Shown here one piece after another: positions 25,688 through 35,542 of a DNA stretch of 64,000 bases. Source of the stretch: a bacterium (GTDB lineage Bacteria > Actinomycetota > Acidimicrobiia > Spongiisociales > Spongiisociaceae); assembly GCA_028821235.1 (NCBI GenBank), contig JAPPGV010000081.1, forward strand, positions 1 to 64,000, written 5' to 3'. A model generated the notes under the pieces. That model was not told the DNA's origin. It saw only the letters and a list, made by a program, of their open reading frames with translations, and ran no database searches. Made by a program: the position numbers and the translations under genes. Positions within the stretch are counted from its first letter, which is position 1, and every line of letters starts with the position of its first letter.

Positions 25688-26475
25688 AGCATGATCCGCT
25701 GAGCACCGACAGGCCTCAGCACCACATCCGTTGCCTGCCCGGTGACGTCGCCGAACGGGTGCTCCTGCCGGGCGATCCCAAGCGAGCCGAGTTGATCGCG
25801 GGCCTTCTCGACGATGCCCGCCACGTCGCCACCAATCGCGAGTACACCACCTATACGGGGACGTACGGGGGCATGCCGGTGTCCGTCACGTCTACCGGTA
25901 TCGGCTGCCCGTCTGCGGCCATCGCGATCGAAGAACTCACCAGCGTGGGCGCCAAGACCCTCATACGAACCGGGACCAGCGGGTCGATGAGTCCCGACGT
26001 GGGGCCGGGTGAGGTGATCGTCGGTACGGCCGCGATCCGGGAGGAAGGAACCGGAACGTCCTACCTCCCGATCGAGTTCCCGGCCGTGGCCGACCTCGAT
26101 CTGACCTACTGCCTGCGGGCGGCGGCCGAGGCGCTCGGGCTTCCGGTTCGGGTGGGGGTGCTCCACTCGAAGGACTCCTTCTACTCCCACCGTGACCCGG
26201 ACCGGCTCCCGGTGGCCCAGGAGATGAGGGGCAAGCGGGCGGCCTGGACGGCGGGAGGCGCCCTGGCTTCGGAGATGGAGACGTCCACGCTCTTCGTTCT
26301 CGGATCCATGCTCCGGGTCAGGACCGGATCCATCTGCCTGGTGGCCAGCTCGCAGGACGCGTCCACCCGGCTGACCCCCGAAGAATCGGAACGCTTGGTC
26401 GAGAAGGTGGTGACAGCCGCGCTCGACGCCCTGGTCCTCGACGAATCGAACGCCACGGGAGGCAGCACTCGATGA
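25684..26475 (+). CDS. Nucleoside phosphorylase (uridine phosphorylase-like)
   Basis: A 263-residue enzyme of the trimeric/hexameric purine nucleoside and uridine phosphorylase family. Motifs include LLPGDPKRAELIA at the phosphate site, TSTGIGCPSAAIAIEEL, and RTGTSGSMSPDVGPGEVIV. The C-terminal SEMETSTLF contains the Glu-Met-Glu that binds ribose. It would cleave a nucleoside with phosphate to a base and ribose-1-phosphate. The ATG overlaps the stop codon of the ECF ATPase gene by 4 bp, so uptake and phosphorolysis are produced together; this is the best clue that the transporter imports nucleosides. Confidence 0.9.
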   Translation: MKHDPLSTDRPQHHIRCLPGDVAERVLLPGDPKRAELIAGLLDDARHVATNREYTTYTGTYGGMPVSVTSTGIGCPSAAIAIEELTSVGAKTLIRTGTSGSMSPDVGPGEVIVGTAAIREEGTGTSYLPIEFPAVADLDLTYCLRAAAEALGLPVRVGVLHSKDSFYSHRDPDRLPVAQEMRGKRAAWTAGGALASEMETSTLFVLGSMLRVRTGSICLVASSQDASTRLTPEESERLVEKVVTAALDALVLDESNATGGSTR

Positions 26476-27476
26476 CCACACGAATCGATGTCCACACCCA
26501 CTTCTACCCCACGTCCTACCTGGCCGGCCTGGAGAAGCGACGCGAGATGCCGCGCGTCTACCGGGACGGCGAGATCCGGCGTTTCGTGATCTTCCCGGAG
26601 GAGGAAGCCGACCCGCGCATCGGTCGCCCCATCGAGGACGGCTGGTGGACGATCCCCGGCAAAGTCGGCTTCATGGACGAGAACGCCATCTCACGATCGG
26701 TCATCTCGCTCGGCAACCCCTGGATGGAGCCCTTCGAGGGACAGCACGGAGTCGAGCTCACGAGGGTGGTCAACGACGAGTTGGGCACGCTGGAGGAGAG
26801 GACGGAGGGCCGGCTGGTCGGCCTGGGCGCCCTTCCCGCCACCGGCGTCCCGGACGTGTTGAACGAGATCGAGGCCATAGACGCCCACCCCAGCCTGCGC
26901 GGGATCGTGACCGGCCCGAGGATCGCCCACTTCCGGCTTGACGACCCGGAACTGGAACCGGTCTGGGCGGCACTCGAGTCCCGGCAACTCCCCTTGCTGT
27001 TGCACCCCCAGGACGGCATCGCCCTCGACCTCCTGGAAGGATACGGACACGTGCTACCCGTGGGGGTGGGATTCCCGATGGAGACCACCGCGGTGGTGAG
27101 CCGGCTCGTTTTCGGCGGCGTCCTCTACAACCACCCCGATCTCAAGATCATCGTCTCCCATGGTGGTGGAACGCTGTCGGCCCTGGTAGGGCGACTCGAC
27201 GCCGCCTGGCGATCGGACGAGATCGGCCGGACCAGACTTCCGGAACTCCCGTCCAAGTCAATCGCCCGGCTATACATCGACGCCATCACGTACGCCGCCG
27301 GCCCGTTCCAAGCCTCGATTGCCATGGTCGGGAGCGACCGGGTCATGTTCGGCACCGACCATCCCTTCTCGATCGAGGATGCCGGAGCCACGATGGACGC
27401 CATGGAGACGGTAGACGAGACGACCCGAGACTCGATCTTCGCCGGCAACGCGTCGGCTCTCTTCGACCTGACCTAG
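26472..27476 (+). CDS. Amidohydrolase family 2 protein (decarboxylase-like TIM barrel)
   Basis: A 334-residue metal-dependent hydrolase of the ACMSD/gamma-resorcylate-decarboxylase group. It starts with the HTH metal motif in IDVHTHFYP, has His in LLLHPQDG, the ISHGGG motif in LKIIVSHGGGTLS, and the final Asp in MFGTDHPF. Such enzymes hydrolyse or non-oxidatively decarboxylate aromatic and heterocyclic acids. Coupled by a 4-bp overlap to the phosphorylase gene, it may act on the released base or its degradation product. It is the last gene of the six-gene ECF operon; no clear terminator follows within the 126-bp gap. Confidence 0.86.
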   Translation: MTTRIDVHTHFYPTSYLAGLEKRREMPRVYRDGEIRRFVIFPEEEADPRIGRPIEDGWWTIPGKVGFMDENAISRSVISLGNPWMEPFEGQHGVELTRVVNDELGTLEERTEGRLVGLGALPATGVPDVLNEIEAIDAHPSLRGIVTGPRIAHFRLDDPELEPVWAALESRQLPLLLHPQDGIALDLLEGYGHVLPVGVGFPMETTAVVSRLVFGGVLYNHPDLKIIVSHGGGTLSALVGRLDAAWRSDEIGRTRLPELPSKSIARLYIDAITYAAGPFQASIAMVGSDRVMFGTDHPFSIEDAGATMDAMETVDETTRDSIFAGNASALFDLT

Positions 27477-27565
27477 GGATCGAACCGACGCTCTAACCGC
27501 CCGCCAAACCTACTCAGAGCTGTATACGACGGATGCGGTCCGCTCGAGGCTCAAACAGCAGCTCG

Positions 27566-27593
27566 GTTAACGGTGGGCTGCTGCCGTTAGCAT
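27566..27593 (+). promoter_or_regulatory. Inverted repeat and -10 hexamer TAGCAT before the helicase fusion gene
   Basis: TAGCAT (27588-27593) lies 9 nt before the ATG at 27603, giving a probable leaderless transcript. It is overlapped by an inverted repeat, GTTAACGG (27566-27573) and CCGTTAGC (27584-27591), matching at 7 of 8 positions, and by CAGCAGC/GCTGCTG (27556-27583). The placement would suit repression of the gene. Confidence 0.4.
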
Positions 27594-27602
27594 CGCCGGG
27601 CT

Positions 27603-30600
27603 ATGCCTTCAATGCCGGAGTTCGTGGTCTTCGATCTGGAGACTAACGCCGATCGACCGGATTCGGCAGAACACGAGATCATCCAGATAGGTGCGGTTCG
27701 CGCCGGGCCCGCGGGCGAGATAGACAGCTTCGAAACTCTGGTGCGGCCGGATCGGAAGTTGCCGGAGCGGATCACCCGGTTGACCGGCCTCGTATACGCC
27801 GACCTGGCCGGCGCTCCTGCGCCCGAGGAGGCCCTACGGCAATTCTTCACCTGGGTGGGCGACCGCCCGATGATCGCCCACAACGGGCTGGGCTACGACT
27901 TCGTGGTGCTCGACGCCTCCGCACAAGCAGCCGGCCTCAAGGCGCCGTCCGGGCGCCGGCTCGACTCCCTGGACCTCGCCCATCTGGTCCACCCGCGGGC
28001 GGGTGCGGGCATCCGGGGATCGGACGGGAGCTATCCCCCGGCCGGACGGGGATTGGACGACCTCGCGGCTCTCTACCGGATCCCGGGCCGGGACAACCAC
28101 GATGCCCTGGTGGATGCACGCATGGCCCACGGGATAGTGCTGGGCCTTCTGGAGGAACTCGGCCGGCCCACGCCCGGCCGCCGGTTGCAGCGCCGGGTCC
28201 TCGGTCTGGTCGGGCATCCCTGGGCCGGCTTCGTCACCGTACCCGGACAGACCGTTGCCCTCCACGAAGCGGTCCCCCGACCAACTCCGCTAGTGCCCAT
28301 CGAACCCACCCGCGAGTTCGACATCAAGAAGGTCGTGGCGGCGTTCCTGGAGGGAGGCGTCCTCATGACCGCCGGAAGAACGCCGCGTCCCCAGCAGGCG
28401 GTGATGGCCGGCATGGTATCCAGGGCGGTCTCGCGCTCGGGATCGCGAGCGATGATCGAGGCGCCAACCGGAACCGGTAAGACCCTCGCCTATCTGGTCC
28501 CCGCCATCGAGATGGCTCGGGCCTCCGGCCTGAAGGCGGTGATCACCCCCCATTCGCGGGTGCTGCAGGACCAGATTCTGGCCACCTTGGAGGAGCTCGA
28601 AACCCAGATCGGGCCGTTCTCCAAGGTGATCATGAAGGGTCGGGAGAACTACATCAGCCTCAAGGCTCTGGACGCCGAGTTGACCGGCCTGGAGGAGGAG
28701 ACCGATCAGATTCCCATCCACCAGGAGACCGGCCTGGCATTGGCGATCATCTGCGGCTGGGTGGCGCAGACGCCGAGCGGGGACTGGGCTGACCTTCGCA
28801 CCGCGGCCATCAAGGGCCGGCTGGCGTCGCTGCGACTCCTCCGCTGGAAACTGCGCGTCGCCGACCCGCCCGGCCCGGTGCGCGACCCTGTCGACGCGCT
28901 GGATTTCTGCCGCCGCGCCCGCGATGCGCTCCGGCTTTGCCACGTGGCGATCCTCAACCACGCCCTGCTCGCCTCCGACCCGGGTCTCGGGGATGGCTTC
29001 AACCTCATCATCGACGAGGCCCACGACCTGGAGGACTCGGTAACTGCCGCCGCCAGCCGGATCGTGACCGGCGAAGAGCTCGAGCGCTTGTGCGTGGCCG
29101 TCTGGGACCGAGAGCAGCGCCGCGGGCTGGCGGCCAGGCTGGCGTCCGCCACCGGAGCCGGCCTCGGAGACCGCAAGATCGCGGCGATACGGCGAGCGGC
29201 CGACCATGCCCGCGCCGCGGTCGAGGCGTTCGGGCTTCCTCTCACCGAATACCTGAGAGATCGGACCGGCGTCACCCGTGAGGAGGCCGCTCGCTACGGC
29301 GCCTCCTACCGGATCCGTCGGGGTGTCGACACCCGCCACCCTTCCTACAGAACGGTCATCCAGCGGGAGCGGGCCATGCGCAACGGTCTCCGGAGGCTGG
29401 TCGACAGCCTCGACGACTTCGTGGTCCCGAAGGAGCTGCGCGGCCGCTACCGGCGGTACGCGCTTGAGGACGAGATCGCCCGGCTGGGCCGGGAGCTACT
29501 CGAGGCGGAGAAGCTGGTCGGCGCCGTGCTGTGGGCCTCGACCGACCTGCGCCTCTTCGATGATGAAACGGATCCCGGCACGACGGAGTGGATCAACATC
29601 GCCGAGGTCTCGTTCGCCAGCCCGGCATCGGCGACGGAGGAAACCGGAGAAGAGGACGAACCCGAGGATGGCAGTTGGCTGTGGGCTCTCCGGAGAGTCC
29701 CGCTCTCCGTGGCCGGCATGCTGTCGGATCTCTGGAAGCGCAGCCACTCGACCGTGCTCACCTCGGCAACGCTGCGGAGCGGGAACAGCTTCGACTACTT
29801 GATCAGGCGCCTCGGCATCGGCTCGGCCCGCACCGAGGTGCTCGACTCCCCCTTCGAGAGGCTCCCCGAACAGCATCTGCTGCTGCTCACGGACTACCTG
29901 CCCGCTCCCAGGGGCAGCCTGATGGACCGCTTCACCGAGACGGAGGCGCGCGAGATCCCGCGGTTGTGCGTGGCCAGCGGCGGGGGCGCCATGGCCCTGA
30001 TGACAGCCCGGGCTCGGCTCCATTACGTCCGGGACCACGCCCGGACCCACCTGGCGCCCCTGGGACTTGAACTCCTCGCCCAGGGAGACGAGTCCTCCCC
30101 CGCCTTGGTGGAGCGCATGAGAACCGATCGGTCCGCCTCGTTGCTGGGTCTGAGATCGTTCTGGGAGGGGGTGGACGTTCCCGGAGAGGCATTGCGCCTA
30201 CTGATCATCGAGAAGATCCCGTTCGACTCGATCGGCGATCCCGTGGTGGCCGCCCGGACGGACCTACTCGAGCGGCAGGGCGAGGACCCGTTCGCCCGGT
30301 ACATAGTCCCGAGGGCCGCCATCGCGTTCGCCCAAGGAGTGGGGAGGCTGATCCGCACCATTGACGACGAGGGGGTCACCGTGGTGCTCGACAACCGGCT
30401 CCGGCGCCCGGTCAGCTACCGGGATGTGCTGCTCGGGAGCCTCTCCGGACCTCCTACGAGGAGAGACATCAACACTCCCGAACAGGCCTACCGGGCGATC
30501 ACCGACCACCTTCGGATCAATCTCGATGACCGGAGGCGAGAACGAATCGACACCATTCCCGGTGTCCGCACCCTCTCCCAGAGCGCTCTCGAGGTCTCAG

Positions 30601-32705
30601 CCGGTGCACCACTCGACCGGGAGGCCGTGGAGGATCGCTTGGAAGCTGCACGCCAGTGGCTGGGCTTCGAGGCCTGGCGGCCCGGACAGCACGAGATCAT
30701 GACCCGGTTCATCGAGGGTGAGGACGTGGTGGCGGTGCTTCCCACCGGATCGGGCAAGTCGGTCACCTACCAGATACCCGCTCTCCTCTCTCCTGGCGTG
30801 ACGCTGATCGTCTCCCCGCTGATCGCCCTCATGAGGGACCAAGTCGACAACCTGCGAGCGAGAGGGATTACCGAGGCGGCTGCCATATACGGCGGGATCG
30901 GCCAGGCCGAGCAGCGCGACATCCTCCGCGCCGCGGCAGCCGGCTATGTCAAGCTGCTCTACGTCAGTCCGGAACGGCTGTGGTCGCCGATGTTCCGATC
31001 CTGGCTGGAGAAGGTGGACATCAGGAGGATCGCCGTGGACGAGGCCCACTGCATCTCCCTGTGGGGCCACTCCTTCCGGCCCGAGTACGCCGTTATCCCG
31101 CGCGCGCTCTCCGCTATCAGCAATGAACGGCTGCCCGTGCTGGCGGTGACCGCCACCGCCACACCGAAGGTCCTCGACGACATATCCAACCTCCTGGAAC
31201 TCCCTGACCCCGCCCGTCTGTCCGGTTCCGCGAACCGGCCCGAGATCCGCTACTTCGTGGAGCGATGCGTGAACACGCGGGATCGCGATCTCCGCATCGC
31301 CGAGGTGGTCGAGGCGTTCCGCCGGAAGAGCGCCATCGTCTACGTCCCGACCCCCAAGGACGCCACCCGGCTGTCCGCCCTCCTGCGCATCTTCGGGCAC
31401 CGGGTGCGCCCGTACAGCGGCGCGATGGAATACACCGAACGGGAACACACCGAGGACGCCTTTCGCCACGGTGAGATCGACGTGGTGGTGGCCACCAAGG
31501 CCTTCGGGCTGGGGATCGACAAGCCGGACATTGCCCTGATCGTGCATCTCGAGATGCCGGCCTCCATCGAGGAGTACGTACAGGAGACCGGCCGGGTGGC
31601 CCGAGGCGCCCGTGACGGCACCGGACCGGAGACCGGCACGGCCGTGCTTCTGGTCACCCCCCGGGACTGCCGTATCCATGAGTATTTCATCCGTTCGTCC
31701 GTCCCGGAACTCGACACCGTCTACGAGGTGTTCCAGGGCCTGCGCCCCGGTCTGAACTTCATCGATCCGGCACCGCCGACCGAGCGGCCGGATGGCCGGG
31801 ACGGGGAGAGGGATCAGACCAAGGCGCTGGCCCTGCACTATCTCGACGGGATCGGCGCCGTCCGGAGGCACCGGGACTTCGTGCTCCGGGGCCGGGTGAC
31901 CCTTGTCGAGGACACGTGGCCGCGATTCGACGAGTACCGACGCCGTATTCCGGAACGGGCCGGAAGGGCCGGAAAGGTGCTGCGGATCGCCGAGCGGGTG
32001 GGAGGCGAGTACCAGTGGCAGTCGTGGCAGGACCGCCTCGGCATGACGCCCCGGGAGATCGAAACGGTGCTCCTGGAGCTGCAGAAGGCGGATGTCTGTG
32101 ACTTCACGGGTTGGAGGTTCGGATGGGTCTTCGATCGCCCGGACGGCGTGGAACCCGACCGGCCCCGCCTCCGCGAGCTGTTGGTCAGCCAGCGCGAGTC
32201 GGTGGAACAGCGGGCGATCAGAGCCCGAGAACTGGCCCGCGGTGCTCCCGATTGCCGGCGGCGCGAGATGCTGGCCTACCTGGGCGAGCGCGAGCCGGGC
32301 TTCGACACCTGCGGCGGATGCGACGCTTGCACGCCCAGCCTCCCCCGCCCGTGGGAGAGGATCGAGATACATACCGATCAGGTACAGGAGGCCGTCCAGG
32401 AAACCGCCACCCTCAGCATCCTGATCCTGGTCGACAGCGTCTCGCGAGGGCAGTGGTCCCGGACCAACCTCGTCCGGACGCTGCGGGGTGACGGCGGAGG
32501 ACCGCACCCGCTCCATCGAAACCTGACACTGAACAGCTGTTTCGCGCAACTAGCGATGCTGACCACCCAGCAGATACAAGACCGGATCGATGAACTGATC
32601 GACGAGGGCATACTGGAAACGGCCAAGCCGCGGGATCGTAACTACGAGACGTTGCGGCTGACCGACCGGGGTCGCCAGGTGGTACGAGGGCGCTACGCCA
32701 GGTAA
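27603..32705 (+). CDS. DEDDh exonuclease - DinG-type helicase - RecQ helicase fusion
   Basis: A 1700-residue, three-part DNA-processing protein. (1) Residues about 5-175: DnaQ-like 3'-5' exonuclease with VFDLETN (Asp11, Glu13), HNGLGYDF, and the final NHDALVDAR His/Asp pair. (2) About 250-980: XPD/DinG-type SF2 helicase with Walker A APTGTGKT (about 285), IIDEAHD (about 468), FWEGVDVPG and QGVGRLIRT (about 910). Its Fe-S cysteines look lost: the usual NYLC reads NYIS. (3) About 1005-1690: RecQ-type helicase with LPTGSGKS (about 1046), VDEAHCISLWG (about 1145), TATATPKV, QETGRVARG (about 1327), zinc cysteines CRRREM...CGGCDAC (about 1550-1575) and a winged-helix tail; no HRDC seen. No stop or frameshift interrupts it. 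Known pairings include DnaQ-DinG; joining to RecQ is unusual to me. Confidence 0.92.
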   Translation: MPSMPEFVVFDLETNADRPDSAEHEIIQIGAVRAGPAGEIDSFETLVRPDRKLPERITRLTGLVYADLAGAPAPEEALRQFFTWVGDRPMIAHNGLGYDFVVLDASAQAAGLKAPSGRRLDSLDLAHLVHPRAGAGIRGSDGSYPPAGRGLDDLAALYRIPGRDNHDALVDARMAHGIVLGLLEELGRPTPGRRLQRRVLGLVGHPWAGFVTVPGQTVALHEAVPRPTPLVPIEPTREFDIKKVVAAFLEGGVLMTAGRTPRPQQAVMAGMVSRAVSRSGSRAMIEAPTGTGKTLAYLVPAIEMARASGLKAVITPHSRVLQDQILATLEELETQIGPFSKVIMKGRENYISLKALDAELTGLEEETDQIPIHQETGLALAIICGWVAQTPSGDWADLRTAAIKGRLASLRLLRWKLRVADPPGPVRDPVDALDFCRRARDALRLCHVAILNHALLASDPGLGDGFNLIIDEAHDLEDSVTAAASRIVTGEELERLCVAVWDREQRRGLAARLASATGAGLGDRKIAAIRRAADHARAAVEAFGLPLTEYLRDRTGVTREEAARYGASYRIRRGVDTRHPSYRTVIQRERAMRNGLRRLVDSLDDFVVPKELRGRYRRYALEDEIARLGRELLEAEKLVGAVLWASTDLRLFDDETDPGTTEWINIAEVSFASPASATEETGEEDEPEDGSWLWALRRVPLSVAGMLSDLWKRSHSTVLTSATLRSGNSFDYLIRRLGIGSARTEVLDSPFERLPEQHLLLLTDYLPAPRGSLMDRFTETEAREIPRLCVASGGGAMALMTARARLHYVRDHARTHLAPLGLELLAQGDESSPALVERMRTDRSASLLGLRSFWEGVDVPGEALRLLIIEKIPFDSIGDPVVAARTDLLERQGEDPFARYIVPRAAIAFAQGVGRLIRTIDDEGVTVVLDNRLRRPVSYRDVLLGSLSGPPTRRDINTPEQAYRAITDHLRINLDDRRRERIDTIPGVRTLSQSALEVSAGAPLDREAVEDRLEAARQWLGFEAWRPGQHEIMTRFIEGEDVVAVLPTGSGKSVTYQIPALLSPGVTLIVSPLIALMRDQVDNLRARGITEAAAIYGGIGQAEQRDILRAAAAGYVKLLYVSPERLWSPMFRSWLEKVDIRRIAVDEAHCISLWGHSFRPEYAVIPRALSAISNERLPVLAVTATATPKVLDDISNLLELPDPARLSGSANRPEIRYFVERCVNTRDRDLRIAEVVEAFRRKSAIVYVPTPKDATRLSALLRIFGHRVRPYSGAMEYTEREHTEDAFRHGEIDVVVATKAFGLGIDKPDIALIVHLEMPASIEEYVQETGRVARGARDGTGPETGTAVLLVTPRDCRIHEYFIRSSVPELDTVYEVFQGLRPGLNFIDPAPPTERPDGRDGERDQTKALALHYLDGIGAVRRHRDFVLRGRVTLVEDTWPRFDEYRRRIPERAGRAGKVLRIAERVGGEYQWQSWQDRLGMTPREIETVLLELQKADVCDFTGWRFGWVFDRPDGVEPDRPRLRELLVSQRESVEQRAIRARELARGAPDCRRREMLAYLGEREPGFDTCGGCDACTPSLPRPWERIEIHTDQVQEAVQETATLSILILVDSVSRGQWSRTNLVRTLRGDGGGPHPLHRNLTLNSCFAQLAMLTTQQIQDRIDELIDEGILETAKPRDRNYETLRLTDRGRQVVRGRYAR

Positions 32706-32732
32706 CGCGCCGGTCCGGAGCAGGCATCCTCG

Positions 32733-32738
32733 TAAGAT
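32733..32738 (+). promoter_or_regulatory. -10 hexamer TAAGAT before the SF1 helicase gene
   Basis: TAAGAT lies 9 nt before the ATG at 32748 with no ribosome-binding site between, so this gene probably has its own leaderless transcript besides any read-through from the fusion gene 42 bp upstream. Confidence 0.4.
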
Positions 32739-32747
32739 GTCCGACCC

Positions 32748-34562
32748 ATGGCGTTCCTGATCCCCGAGAACATTCCCAGCCGGTCCAGCGTGCCCGATCG
32801 GCTCCGGCATGTGGCGCGGGCGGCGCGCGACTTCCTGCCCGACGAGACCACTGTCTGGCTCGAGGCGAAGGATGACAAACCGCCGTACCTCTTGGTGCTG
32901 GACCCGGGCGCCGGGATCGTTCTCCTGGAAGCGCCACGGACGCCCAGACCGGGCCGGAGGCCCCGTTGGATGCGCCAAGTCCTGAGAGAGGAGACGATCG
33001 TCTCCATAAGGGAGGACATCGCCGAGCGCGCCGGAGAGTTGCGATCCCGGATCGACCGGTCATTGGTCCGTTCGTTGCCGGTCTGCCATGTGGTGGCGTT
33101 TCCCGACCACGACCGGCCGGTCGATGGATTCGAGCCTTCCGACAACCAGGCCGTCCTGCTGGGATCCGATATGAACGAGACCCGCATGCGTGCGTCTATC
33201 AGGCGGATGCTGGGGGCCGAGGTCGCCTCTCCTTTGAGCGAGCAGGAGGAGAACCGGGTACGCGCCGAGATAAACCCTCGCGTGGTCATCGATCCGCAGG
33301 TGCTCGGGTCGGAACCGGAGCGCGGCCAAACCCTGCCCCTGTTCCAGGAACCCGACGTGGCTCCGGAGGACATCATCCGGGTCATGGACCGCCGGCAGGA
33401 AAGGCTGGCCGAGCATATGGGCTGGGGGTACCGGATGCTGCGCGGTGTGGCCGGGAGCGGTAAGACGCTGGTGCTGACCCACCGGGCCCGCTTCCTGCAT
33501 GACACCTCCCCGAACTACCGCATCTTGGTGCTGTGCTACAACCGGCTGCTGGCCAACGCCCTCGAATTGATGGTCGGCCGGAGCGACCGCATCACCGTGA
33601 GGAACGTAGACCGGCTGGCGTACCGCCTGGCAGGAAGGCCCGGCAGGCCGGGCAGGCTCGACTTCGAGGAGCAAAGGCGGCGGGCGGTCGGAGCCGCCAA
33701 CCGGCTGCCCGACTCCCGCCGGTACGACATCGTCATGGTCGATGAGGCCCAGGACTTCGATCATGCCGGCCTCGACCTGGCATACGCGATGCTCAAGGCG
33801 TCGCGGCGGAACCTCCAGCCCACCAGTCTCGATCTACGCTCCTACCAGGCCGGGCACCTCGTCCTGGCGCTGGACAGCGCCCAGAACGTCTACAGGCGGA
33901 GCATGACGTGGAACCCGCCCGAGATGACCGCCCGCGGACGCACCACGATCTTCCGGCGCAACTACCGCAACACGCGACAGATCCTGGATCTCGCCTGGGA
34001 CTTCCTGGATGGATCCGCAACCGGGCGATCAACCGGGAGACCCGAGGAGGAGTGGTTGATCCGACCCGAGGCGAGTTACCGGCAAGGACCCGCTCCCAGA
34101 GTTCTCGAGTGCGGGAACCTTCGGGACGAAGCCCGGGCCATGGCTTCCGAAGTGGTGCGCCTCTTCTCCGAAGGGGTCGATGCCAAGGACATCGCCGTCA
34201 TGTACGGACACCGGGACCTCCAGGACGAGCTGTGGGACGAGTGCCGGAGACAGAACCTTCCCTATTTCCACATCCAGCACAAGGACCGCAAGCCTTCCGA
34301 GGACCGCAGGGACCTGGCCATGAGCGTCCACGACAGAGTCCGGGTGTCGACCATCCACGGCCTCAAGGGGCTCGAGTTCAGCCGGATCGTGATCGGCGGC
34401 GTCAACCAGGTCTACGCCCATGATGTACCGGAGGGGGAGCAGACGGACGCCGCCAAGCGGCTCGTCTACGTGGGCATGACGAGGGCAATGGACGAGTTGG
34501 TGATCACCTACTCGGGCCATGGCAAGATCGGGCCCGCCCTCCGTAACGCCGCGCGAACGTAG
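32748..34562 (+). CDS. Superfamily 1 (UvrD-like) DNA helicase with NERD-like N-terminus
   Basis: A 604-residue protein. Residues about 1-190 contain YLLVLDPGAGIVLLEAP, which resembles the strand pattern of nuclease-related (NERD) domains, although the catalytic Lys position is Pro; this part is probably a degenerate NERD-like module. The helicase core has Walker A GVAGSGKTLVLTHRA (about 235), motif II VMVDEAQDFD (about 329), FRRNYRNTRQI, HGLKGLEFSRIV (about 534) and YVGMTRAMDELVI (about 574). It would unwind DNA 3'-5' using ATP. It lies 42 bp after the exonuclease-helicase fusion on the same strand, making a functional pair likely. The nuclease-domain call is inference. Confidence 0.87.
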   Translation: MAFLIPENIPSRSSVPDRLRHVARAARDFLPDETTVWLEAKDDKPPYLLVLDPGAGIVLLEAPRTPRPGRRPRWMRQVLREETIVSIREDIAERAGELRSRIDRSLVRSLPVCHVVAFPDHDRPVDGFEPSDNQAVLLGSDMNETRMRASIRRMLGAEVASPLSEQEENRVRAEINPRVVIDPQVLGSEPERGQTLPLFQEPDVAPEDIIRVMDRRQERLAEHMGWGYRMLRGVAGSGKTLVLTHRARFLHDTSPNYRILVLCYNRLLANALELMVGRSDRITVRNVDRLAYRLAGRPGRPGRLDFEEQRRRAVGAANRLPDSRRYDIVMVDEAQDFDHAGLDLAYAMLKASRRNLQPTSLDLRSYQAGHLVLALDSAQNVYRRSMTWNPPEMTARGRTTIFRRNYRNTRQILDLAWDFLDGSATGRSTGRPEEEWLIRPEASYRQGPAPRVLECGNLRDEARAMASEVVRLFSEGVDAKDIAVMYGHRDLQDELWDECRRQNLPYFHIQHKDRKPSEDRRDLAMSVHDRVRVSTIHGLKGLEFSRIVIGGVNQVYAHDVPEGEQTDAAKRLVYVGMTRAMDELVITYSGHGKIGPALRNAART

Positions 34563-34646
34563 GACGAACTCGCCACTCGGGAACAGTTAGCTCGTCGGCC
34601 AATCCTGTCAAGTAGGTTGCAGTTTCGTGTGACGCCGATGTGCGGA

Positions 34647-34691
34647 GTGATCGGATTTGGTAGATCGAATCGATTCGATCTTGGAGATCAC
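34647..34691. promoter_or_regulatory. Operator-like perfect 20-bp palindrome upstream of the SDR operon
   Basis: AGATCGAATCGATTCGATCT (34662-34681) is a perfect palindrome. It is nested in a wider inverted pair, GTGATC (34647-34652) and GATCAC (34686-34691). It ends 21 bp before a TAGGAT -10 hexamer at 34703-34708, thus covering the -35 region of the promoter for the gene at 34742. This is the typical position of a repressor or activator site; the regulator gene is not nearby. Confidence 0.6.
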
Positions 34692-34702
34692 GCCCCATCT
34701 CC

Positions 34703-34708
34703 TAGGAT
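34703..34708 (+). promoter_or_regulatory. -10 hexamer TAGGAT of the SDR operon
   Basis: TAGGAT is followed after 18 bp by the ribosome-binding site AGGAGGG (34727-34733) and the GTG start at 34742. Confidence 0.4.
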
Positions 34709-34741
34709 CGTCGGGCCGGCTGTGGCAGGAGGGCGTCTGAC

Positions 34742-35542
34742 GTGATTGAAGAGCGGTTCTCGATGGCCGGGCGGCGTGCATTGGTGACCGGTGGCGGTGG
34801 GGGGTTCGGTAGGGCCTTCTGCCGGATCCTGGCCGAGGCCGGCGCCGAGGTCATCCCGGTCGACATTGATCGGTCCGCCGCCGAGGAGACCGCCTCGCTC
34901 GTATCAGGGGGCGGTGGCCGGGCCTGGGCGATCGAATGTGACGTGGCGGATGCGACCGCTGTCGAGGCGATGTCCGAACGGCTGGCGGAGGCCGGCCCGG
35001 GCTTGGACGTGCTGATCAACAACGCCGGCAACTCCCCTCCGTCCAGGCGGGTGGCCGACATCCCCGTCCAGGAGTGGGACGACGTGATCGCGGTCAACCT
35101 GCGGAGCGCGTTCCTGTGCACCCGAGCGCTGATACCGATGATGCTGGCCACCGAGAGCCCGTCCATCGTGAACATCGCCTCGGTGCTCGGGATGCGGGGC
35201 TTCCATCCGGACGTCATCTCCCAGGCCGGATACGCCGCCTCCAAGGCAGGCATGATCGGACTCACCCTCCAGACCGCGGCCGACTACGGGGAGTTCGGGC
35301 TGCGCGCCAACGCCGTAGCCCCCGGCTGGCACCTCGGCACCAACCTGAGCAAGCGGGCCGGTAACTTCGCCACCCCCGAACAGGAGGCGAGCCTCCGGCG
35401 CACCATCCACGAGCGGATACCGCTCCAGCGAGCCTCCACCGCCGAGGAGCTCGCTCCCCTGGTCCTCTACCTGGCCAGTGACGCCTCCCGGTTCGTGAGC
35501 GGGGCGGTCATGACCCACGACGGCGGCTGGACGGCCATATGA
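34742..35542 (+). CDS. SDR family oxidoreductase
   Basis: A 266-residue classical short-chain dehydrogenase. It has TGGGGGFGRAF for NAD(P) binding, NNAGN, a Ser in VNIASVLG, the YAASK catalytic Tyr/Lys pair and a normal C-terminal region ending VMTHDGGWTAI. Asp in PVDIDRS after the second strand suggests preference for NAD(H). The start is GTG with AGGAGGG 8 bp upstream; an ATG seven codons later is less well placed. It is controlled by the palindromic operator just upstream and is translationally coupled to the next SDR gene by a 4-bp overlap. The substrate is unknown. Confidence 0.88.
   Translation: MIEERFSMAGRRALVTGGGGGFGRAFCRILAEAGAEVIPVDIDRSAAEETASLVSGGGGRAWAIECDVADATAVEAMSERLAEAGPGLDVLINNAGNSPPSRRVADIPVQEWDDVIAVNLRSAFLCTRALIPMMLATESPSIVNIASVLGMRGFHPDVISQAGYAASKAGMIGLTLQTAADYGEFGLRANAVAPGWHLGTNLSKRAGNFATPEQEASLRRTIHERIPLQRASTAEELAPLVLYLASDASRFVSGAVMTHDGGWTAI

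Follow-up and report, generated by a model that had tools for sequence, protein, structure and literature searches.

RecQ and UvrD are classical families of DNA repair helicases, and human WRN carries a 3'-5' exonuclease and a RecQ helicase on one chain. A DnaQ-DinG-RecQ 'three-domain fusion' has been noted in Thermus thermophilus HB27 (Omelchenko et al., 2005; PMC1274311), and the architecture of the protein described here has thus been known since 2005, though unstudied. For a named system of this architecture the open-access literature yields only that paper, and literature searches found no functional study of the fusion, no earlier description of it from Actinomycetota and no report of a mobile two-gene cassette or, in Thermales, of linkage to three further genes. 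The ExoDinG proteins (e.g., SaDinG of S. aureus and DinG of B. subtilis) combine an N-terminal DEDDh exonuclease with a DinG helicase that lacks iron-sulphur cysteines; RecQ is not mentioned in the survey of DinG-like proteins that covers them (Cheng, 2025; PMC11981726). In SaDinG the nuclease can be held back by ATP, and unwinding survives the lack of these cysteines (PMC12345164). Furthermore, Hna of Sinorhizobium meliloti is a DinG-like helicase-nuclease with abortive-infection activity, whose nuclease is restrained by ATP and released by a phage SSB (PMC13381803).

The present fusion is encoded in a 64,000-nucleotide stretch of DNA from Acidimicrobiia (Actinomycetota), referred to as the window, in which all genes and domains given below lie on the plus strand. 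A single ATG-initiated frame of 1,700 codons (27603-32705) runs without an internal stop, and its ORF, Pfam and NCBIfam matches and alignment bear out the preliminary description of one uninterrupted 1,700-residue protein with DEDDh exonuclease, DinG and RecQ parts. The DEDDh 3'-5' exonuclease module (27624-28127, residues 8-175) is matched over its whole length by Pfam RNase_T at 75 bits against a cutoff of 24. The DinG/XPD-type SF2 helicase module (28371-30473, approximately residues 257-957) is recognised by ResIII at residues 261-347 and by Helicase_C_2 at residues 787-944 (120 bits); its best DinG-type NCBIfam matches, PRK08074 and dinG_rel, are both under their equivalog cutoffs. The RecQ helicase core (30639-31682, approximately residues 1013-1360) matches DEAD (1026-1193) and Helicase_C (1237-1334), and the third module exceeds the cutoff of the RecQ subfamily model TIGR00614 (300 bits, cutoff 219.8) but falls short of the 640-bit cutoff of the canonical RecQ equivalog TIGR01389 (375.9 bits). 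It is followed by a RecQ-type zinc-binding segment (32208-32333; Cys 1551, 1570, 1573 and 1576), to which RecQ_Zn_bind is a marginal match (residues 1536-1577, 25.8 bits against a cutoff of 25). A divergent winged-helix or RQC-like C-terminus (32415-32693) is assigned tentatively, as the RQC match (residues 1639-1697, 18.7 bits) lies under the cutoff of 23 and the helices and strands of the predicted model are compatible with such a fold. Sequence matches in the PDB are RecQ, WRN, BLM and DinG proteins. The genome from which the window comes encodes no other protein of this kind, the remaining matches being weaker ones to helicase cores.

To examine the motifs, an alignment was made of ten full-length proteins, drawn from Acidimicrobiia, Thermus and Deinococcus. 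The DEDDh residues (D11, E13, D99, H166 and D171) are invariant, as are Walker A (289-294), DEAH (471-474) and motif VI (approximately 911-918) of the DinG module and Walker A (1047-1053), DEAH (1146-1149) and motif VI (1327-1334) of the RecQ module, including the motif VI arginines of both helicases. The four zinc cysteines are invariant in this alignment and across 21 sequences. The full set of motifs that had been claimed for each part was therefore found, with the exception of the winged helix, which is divergent and sub-threshold in Pfam. Structure models were built on 12-13 actinobacterial sequences, and the AlphaFold model of the RecQ side (residues 986-1700) has a mean pLDDT of 83 and a pTM of 0.79 and is best matched in the PDB by catalytic cores of RecQ.

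As judged from comparison with four relatives, every module of the fusion is under purifying selection, with pN/pS values of 0.16-0.42 for the exonuclease, DinG and RecQ-core modules, 0.35-0.50 for the zinc/winged-helix part and 0.44-0.70 for the two linkers. This selection argues against an artefact of sequencing or assembly and against a chance fusion without function, as do the eight intact full-length homologues found in Acidimicrobiia and the Thermus plasmids with an identical module order. An artefact might be suspected from two relatives in which the large gene is broken (G690, locus L117, and the second copy of G013, locus L045), one frame change lying near residue 370 and the other between residues 497 and 529, due to either decay or assembly error. 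However, a chance or assembly fusion is excluded by the presence of full-length intact homologues of 50-83% identity in separately assembled genomes, and such an origin is barely credible.

Comparison with the described proteins places the fusion next to several families. The 'REC_DNA' fusion of HB27 was taken here to be WP_011174436.1, the protein that fits, and it shares with the window's protein the three modules, their order and the catalytic motifs, at approximately 29% identity in a full-length alignment. The Thermus copies have clustered cysteines in DinG and, downstream, three genes that do not resemble UvrD, whereas the window's copy has no such cysteines and a UvrD-type partner. The four cysteines between helicase motifs I and II that would indicate a DinG iron-sulphur cluster are not present in the window's copy; actinobacterial DinG modules have 0-3 cysteines there, and clustered cysteines occur only in the copies from Thermus and Deinococcus. 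When trees were built for the RecQ and DinG modules, each resolved one actinobacterial and one Deinococcota group, and a single origin was not rejected (p-AU 0.48 and 0.10). The fusion carries the DEDDh residues and DinG helicase motifs that characterise ExoDinG proteins and, like them, has an N-terminal exonuclease and lacks the iron-sulphur cysteines, but SaDinG and B. subtilis DinG possess neither a RecQ module nor a UvrD partner. With bacterial RecQ it shares an SF2 core above the RecQ-subfamily cutoff and the four zinc cysteines, although the window's module is under the equivalog cutoff, has a divergent RQC and an extra region between core and zinc segment, and is fused at its N-terminus. 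The RecQ core is also similar in sequence to that of WRN, which lacks a DinG motor and can serve as an analogy only. Hna resembles the fusion in its DinG-like motor without an iron-sulphur cluster and in its 3'-5' single-stranded-DNA exonuclease activity; however, its nuclease is of the PD-(D/E)xK type at the C-terminus and it has no RecQ module, whereas that of the fusion is a DEDDh domain at the N-terminus (PMC13381803). No Pfam match to a PD-(D/E)xK nuclease was found at the C-terminus of the fusion, which is RecQ-type.

No PADLOC model describes the fusion system, its matches to the fusion being to shared helicase and nuclease cores. The labels DpdF, type IV DinG, PsyrT and GajB were rejected on this ground. 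Specifically, type IV CRISPR CasDinG was set aside given the lack of csf or cas genes in an insert of only two genes and a PADLOC match limited to the DinG core, and Gabija given that no GajA nuclease lies alongside.

The second gene of the insert begins 42 bp downstream of the fusion and encodes an SF1 UvrD-type helicase of 604 amino acids (32748-34562; Pfam UvrD_C and UvrD-helicase). A UvrD-type gene follows the fusion directly in 13 of 13 actinobacterial loci with a readable downstream gene, with gaps of 0-98 bp and in mostly unrelated neighbourhoods; G332 gives no reading, its contig ending within the fusion gene. The first ~200 residues of the partner (tentatively 32748-33362) are NERD-like in the order of helices and strands in the model and in the kinship of the protein with NERD-UvrD helicases, whereas no Pfam NERD match was found in the partner protein. 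Where the catalytic E-x-K would be expected, the window's partner has E-A-P, and none of the 12 aligned partners has E-x-K there; the NERD-like domain is thus probably dead. The partner belongs to the broad group that includes the NERD-UvrD helicases (PADLOC C3a187, RTasNERD-Hel) and GajB of Gabija, but differs from those systems in its lost NERD lysine, in the absence of GajA or a reverse transcriptase, and in its pairing with the fusion. The cassette of G534 is directly adjoined by a second NERD-UvrD helicase, in which E-x-K is intact (EAK; L116:12811-14532). A separate 1,815-residue protein of G001 (L046:3010-8457, minus strand) combines on a single chain a helicase of the RecQ type at 290-621 with one of the UvrD type at 1107-1593, which supports a functional pairing of the two modules; its N-terminal DLET motif may mark a divergent DEDD exonuclease.

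The two genes occupy a segment of approximately 7.2 kb (27515-34691, boundaries approximate) between an amidohydrolase gene (26472-27476) and a short-chain dehydrogenase gene (34742-35542), and its limits are set where homology to three congeners (G002, G003 and G008) breaks off and resumes. In these congeners the site is empty, the flanking genes adjoining at a distance of ~127-129 bp. Among the ten genomes of the genus, the dehydrogenase gene is present in all and the amidohydrolase gene in nine. A DEAD-box helicase gene occupies the same junction in G005 and G007, and in G006 the contig ends there. From this comparison the junction (27476-34742) looks like an insertion hot spot, and no convincing terminal repeats were found at the cassette ends. 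The cassette lies in other surroundings in G004, G009, G003, G011, G010/G013, G689, G534 and G690. In G003, where the junction is empty, the flank gene is 95% identical to that of the window while the cassette, sited elsewhere, is only ~50% identical, and G013 holds two divergent cassette copies; both observations suggest horizontal transfer. Comparison of the genomes thus shows the fusion and UvrD-type gene to behave as an accessory cassette moving between genomic sites and lineages. The partner gene, insertion boundaries and mobility go beyond what the preliminary description had covered.

The distribution of the cassette is patchy. It is present in five of the ten genomes of the window's genus, and among the other five, four lack any RecQ or DinG match at E<=1e-20, which indicates that the fusion is dispensable. 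Beyond the window's own genome, the fusion was found in 1 of 396 genomes of a phylum-wide sample; in a class sample 18 of 375 genomes gave a match, six of them to the exonuclease-DinG part only. The survey covered Actinomycetota and plasmid-borne Deinococcota, and one scan across all genome contigs gave close relatives only. The same three-domain order, which the preliminary description had proposed to search for across genomes, was recovered in about a dozen of the sampled Actinomycetota genomes and in 22 Deinococcota plasmid records (21 Thermales and one Deinococcus), with the fusion annotated as two pieces in the SG0.5JP17-16 plasmid record. Neither phage records nor IMG/VR contigs contained a match to the three modules together. 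Hence the earlier statement that no described example was known does not hold, and the architecture, although already described, is common only in the window's own family. Two apparent split fusions (G046 and G051, DinG beside a helicase) were dropped since the second gene encodes an RhlE-like DEAD-box helicase. The genes of genus g264 (L118-L123) were also rejected as fusions, as they match residues 3-955 only and have no adjoining RecQ; they encode exonuclease-DinG proteins of ~1,000 amino acids without a RecQ or UvrD partner, lie in a conserved neighbourhood and cluster in the tree close to the DinG modules of the fusions.

In Thermales, the fusion is followed in 21 of 21 records (loci L008 and L124-L130 among them) by three conserved genes of ~260, 180 and 510 amino acids, of which the first two encode coiled-coil proteins and the third a protein with no known domain. 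The 510-residue gene and the Thermales fusion occur in precisely the same set of 21 plasmid records. The fusion and the three genes apparently form an unreported four-gene cassette. Its surroundings vary with species and plasmid site, and in some records include CRISPR (type I-C or III-B), brxL/BrxL, VapBC and transposase genes; on pTT27 of HB27, WP_011174436.1 is situated between type I-C cas genes and type III-B cmr genes. In T. oshimai a relative of the window's partner, likewise of the UvrD type, lies directly upstream of the fusion, and another UvrD-type helicase gene lies upstream of it in Deinococcus actinosclerus. A plasmid recQ of HB27, which we infer to be the fusion, was classed as 'Highly Permissive' and as shell-genome in Tn-seq (PMC13140390).

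The preliminary description had left the function between repair of DNA and antiphage activity; that the gene behaves as an accessory one speaks for the latter. Based on sequence comparison and analogy, the fusion-UvrD cassette appears, at slightly better than an even chance, to be a horizontally moving helicase-nuclease with an anti-phage or anti-plasmid role rather than a housekeeping repair enzyme. This preference rests on its site-hopping, on its plasmid or island neighbours (CRISPR, BrxL, PemK, DarG-like macrodomain, GmrSD and Fic) and on the analogy with Hna. At the other actinobacterial loci, the neighbours comprise a PemK toxin, a DarG-like macrodomain protein, GmrSD, the second NERD-UvrD helicase, Fic and IS110, and the PADLOC models mads_3 and mads_8 were matched among them; this is a listing of neighbours rather than a measure of enrichment. 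Against defence, the window's insert holds only its two genes between metabolic flanks, PIN and toxin-antitoxin-like genes are likewise found beside some of the stand-alone exonuclease-DinG genes in g264, and the nearest studied enzymes, the exonuclease-DinG proteins of S. aureus and B. subtilis, serve crosslink or replication-stress repair.

An accessory repair or replication-stress enzyme is a substantial, though minority, possibility. Here, the exonuclease-DinG part would clear crosslink or R-loop intermediates as in Bacillota, RecQ and UvrD would remodel stalled forks, and the cassette would be lost and regained as it is useful only in some habitats. The membership of RecQ and UvrD in repair families fits such a role, as does MrfAB, in which an SF2 helicase and a DEDDh exonuclease form a mitomycin repair pair. 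In addition, exonuclease-DinG mutants of S. aureus show sensitivity to mitomycin C and to formaldehyde (PMC12345164), and B. subtilis DinG acts on R-loops and in replication stress (PMC12525004). However, repair would not readily account for a patchy, site-hopping distribution with empty sites, for related genomes that survive without any RecQ or DinG, for a Thermus copy on a dispensable megaplasmid, or for strictly linked partners that differ between two phyla. A role in plasmid or island maintenance or in DNA uptake, such as the destruction of incoming linear DNA or of competing plasmids, is unlikely: the Thermales copies do reside on megaplasmids, and bipolar end processing by a helicase-nuclease would suit incoming linear DNA, but the actinobacterial copies are found on long contigs, which reach 3.0-3.6 Mb in G011 and G689, and the insert is without plasmid genes.

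Members of these families have characteristic polarities, DinG moving 5'-3' and RecQ 3'-5', with DEDDh exonucleases digesting single-stranded DNA 3'-5'; RecD and RecB are motors of opposite polarity that travel in the same direction along a duplex. The two ATPase sites of the fusion, the one in the partner and the exonuclease residues are all intact, and it may fairly be inferred from the sequence that unwinding and degradation would be coupled, as the preliminary description had suggested. Under the defence reading, the DinG motor would run 5'-3' on one strand and the RecQ motor 3'-5' on the other, and both motors of the single chain would travel the same way along the duplex, as in RecD and RecB. 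The DEDDh site would trim the exposed 3'-ended strand, while the UvrD-type partner, its NERD domain apparently dead, may load or drive the complex. The nuclease might be gated by ATP and by the status of single-stranded DNA, as in Hna and S. aureus DinG.

Somewhat less than an even chance is given to the wider proposal of an unnamed anti-phage or anti-plasmid family around exonuclease-DinG-RecQ, spanning Actinomycetota and Deinococcota, whose partners would differ by clade (either a UvrD-type helicase or a module of three genes with coiled-coil proteins) and which would act as a RecBCD-like bipolar SF2 helicase-nuclease. A fusion mentioned in passing twenty years ago lies at the heart of a mobile cassette in both phyla, each of which has its own strictly linked partners. 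Should it be an immune system, it would represent a helicase-nuclease of new design, in which one chain bears motors of both polarities. A direct test is feasible in T. thermophilus HB27, a genetically tractable strain whose megaplasmid can be cured and for which transposon libraries exist and phages are known. Another RecQ pairing was observed in G011 and G013 (L047 and L048), where proteins of ~1,250-1,280 amino acids carry an N-terminal zinc-ribbon-like segment and a RecQ-type helicase, and each gene is followed by a similar gene of ~189 amino acids.
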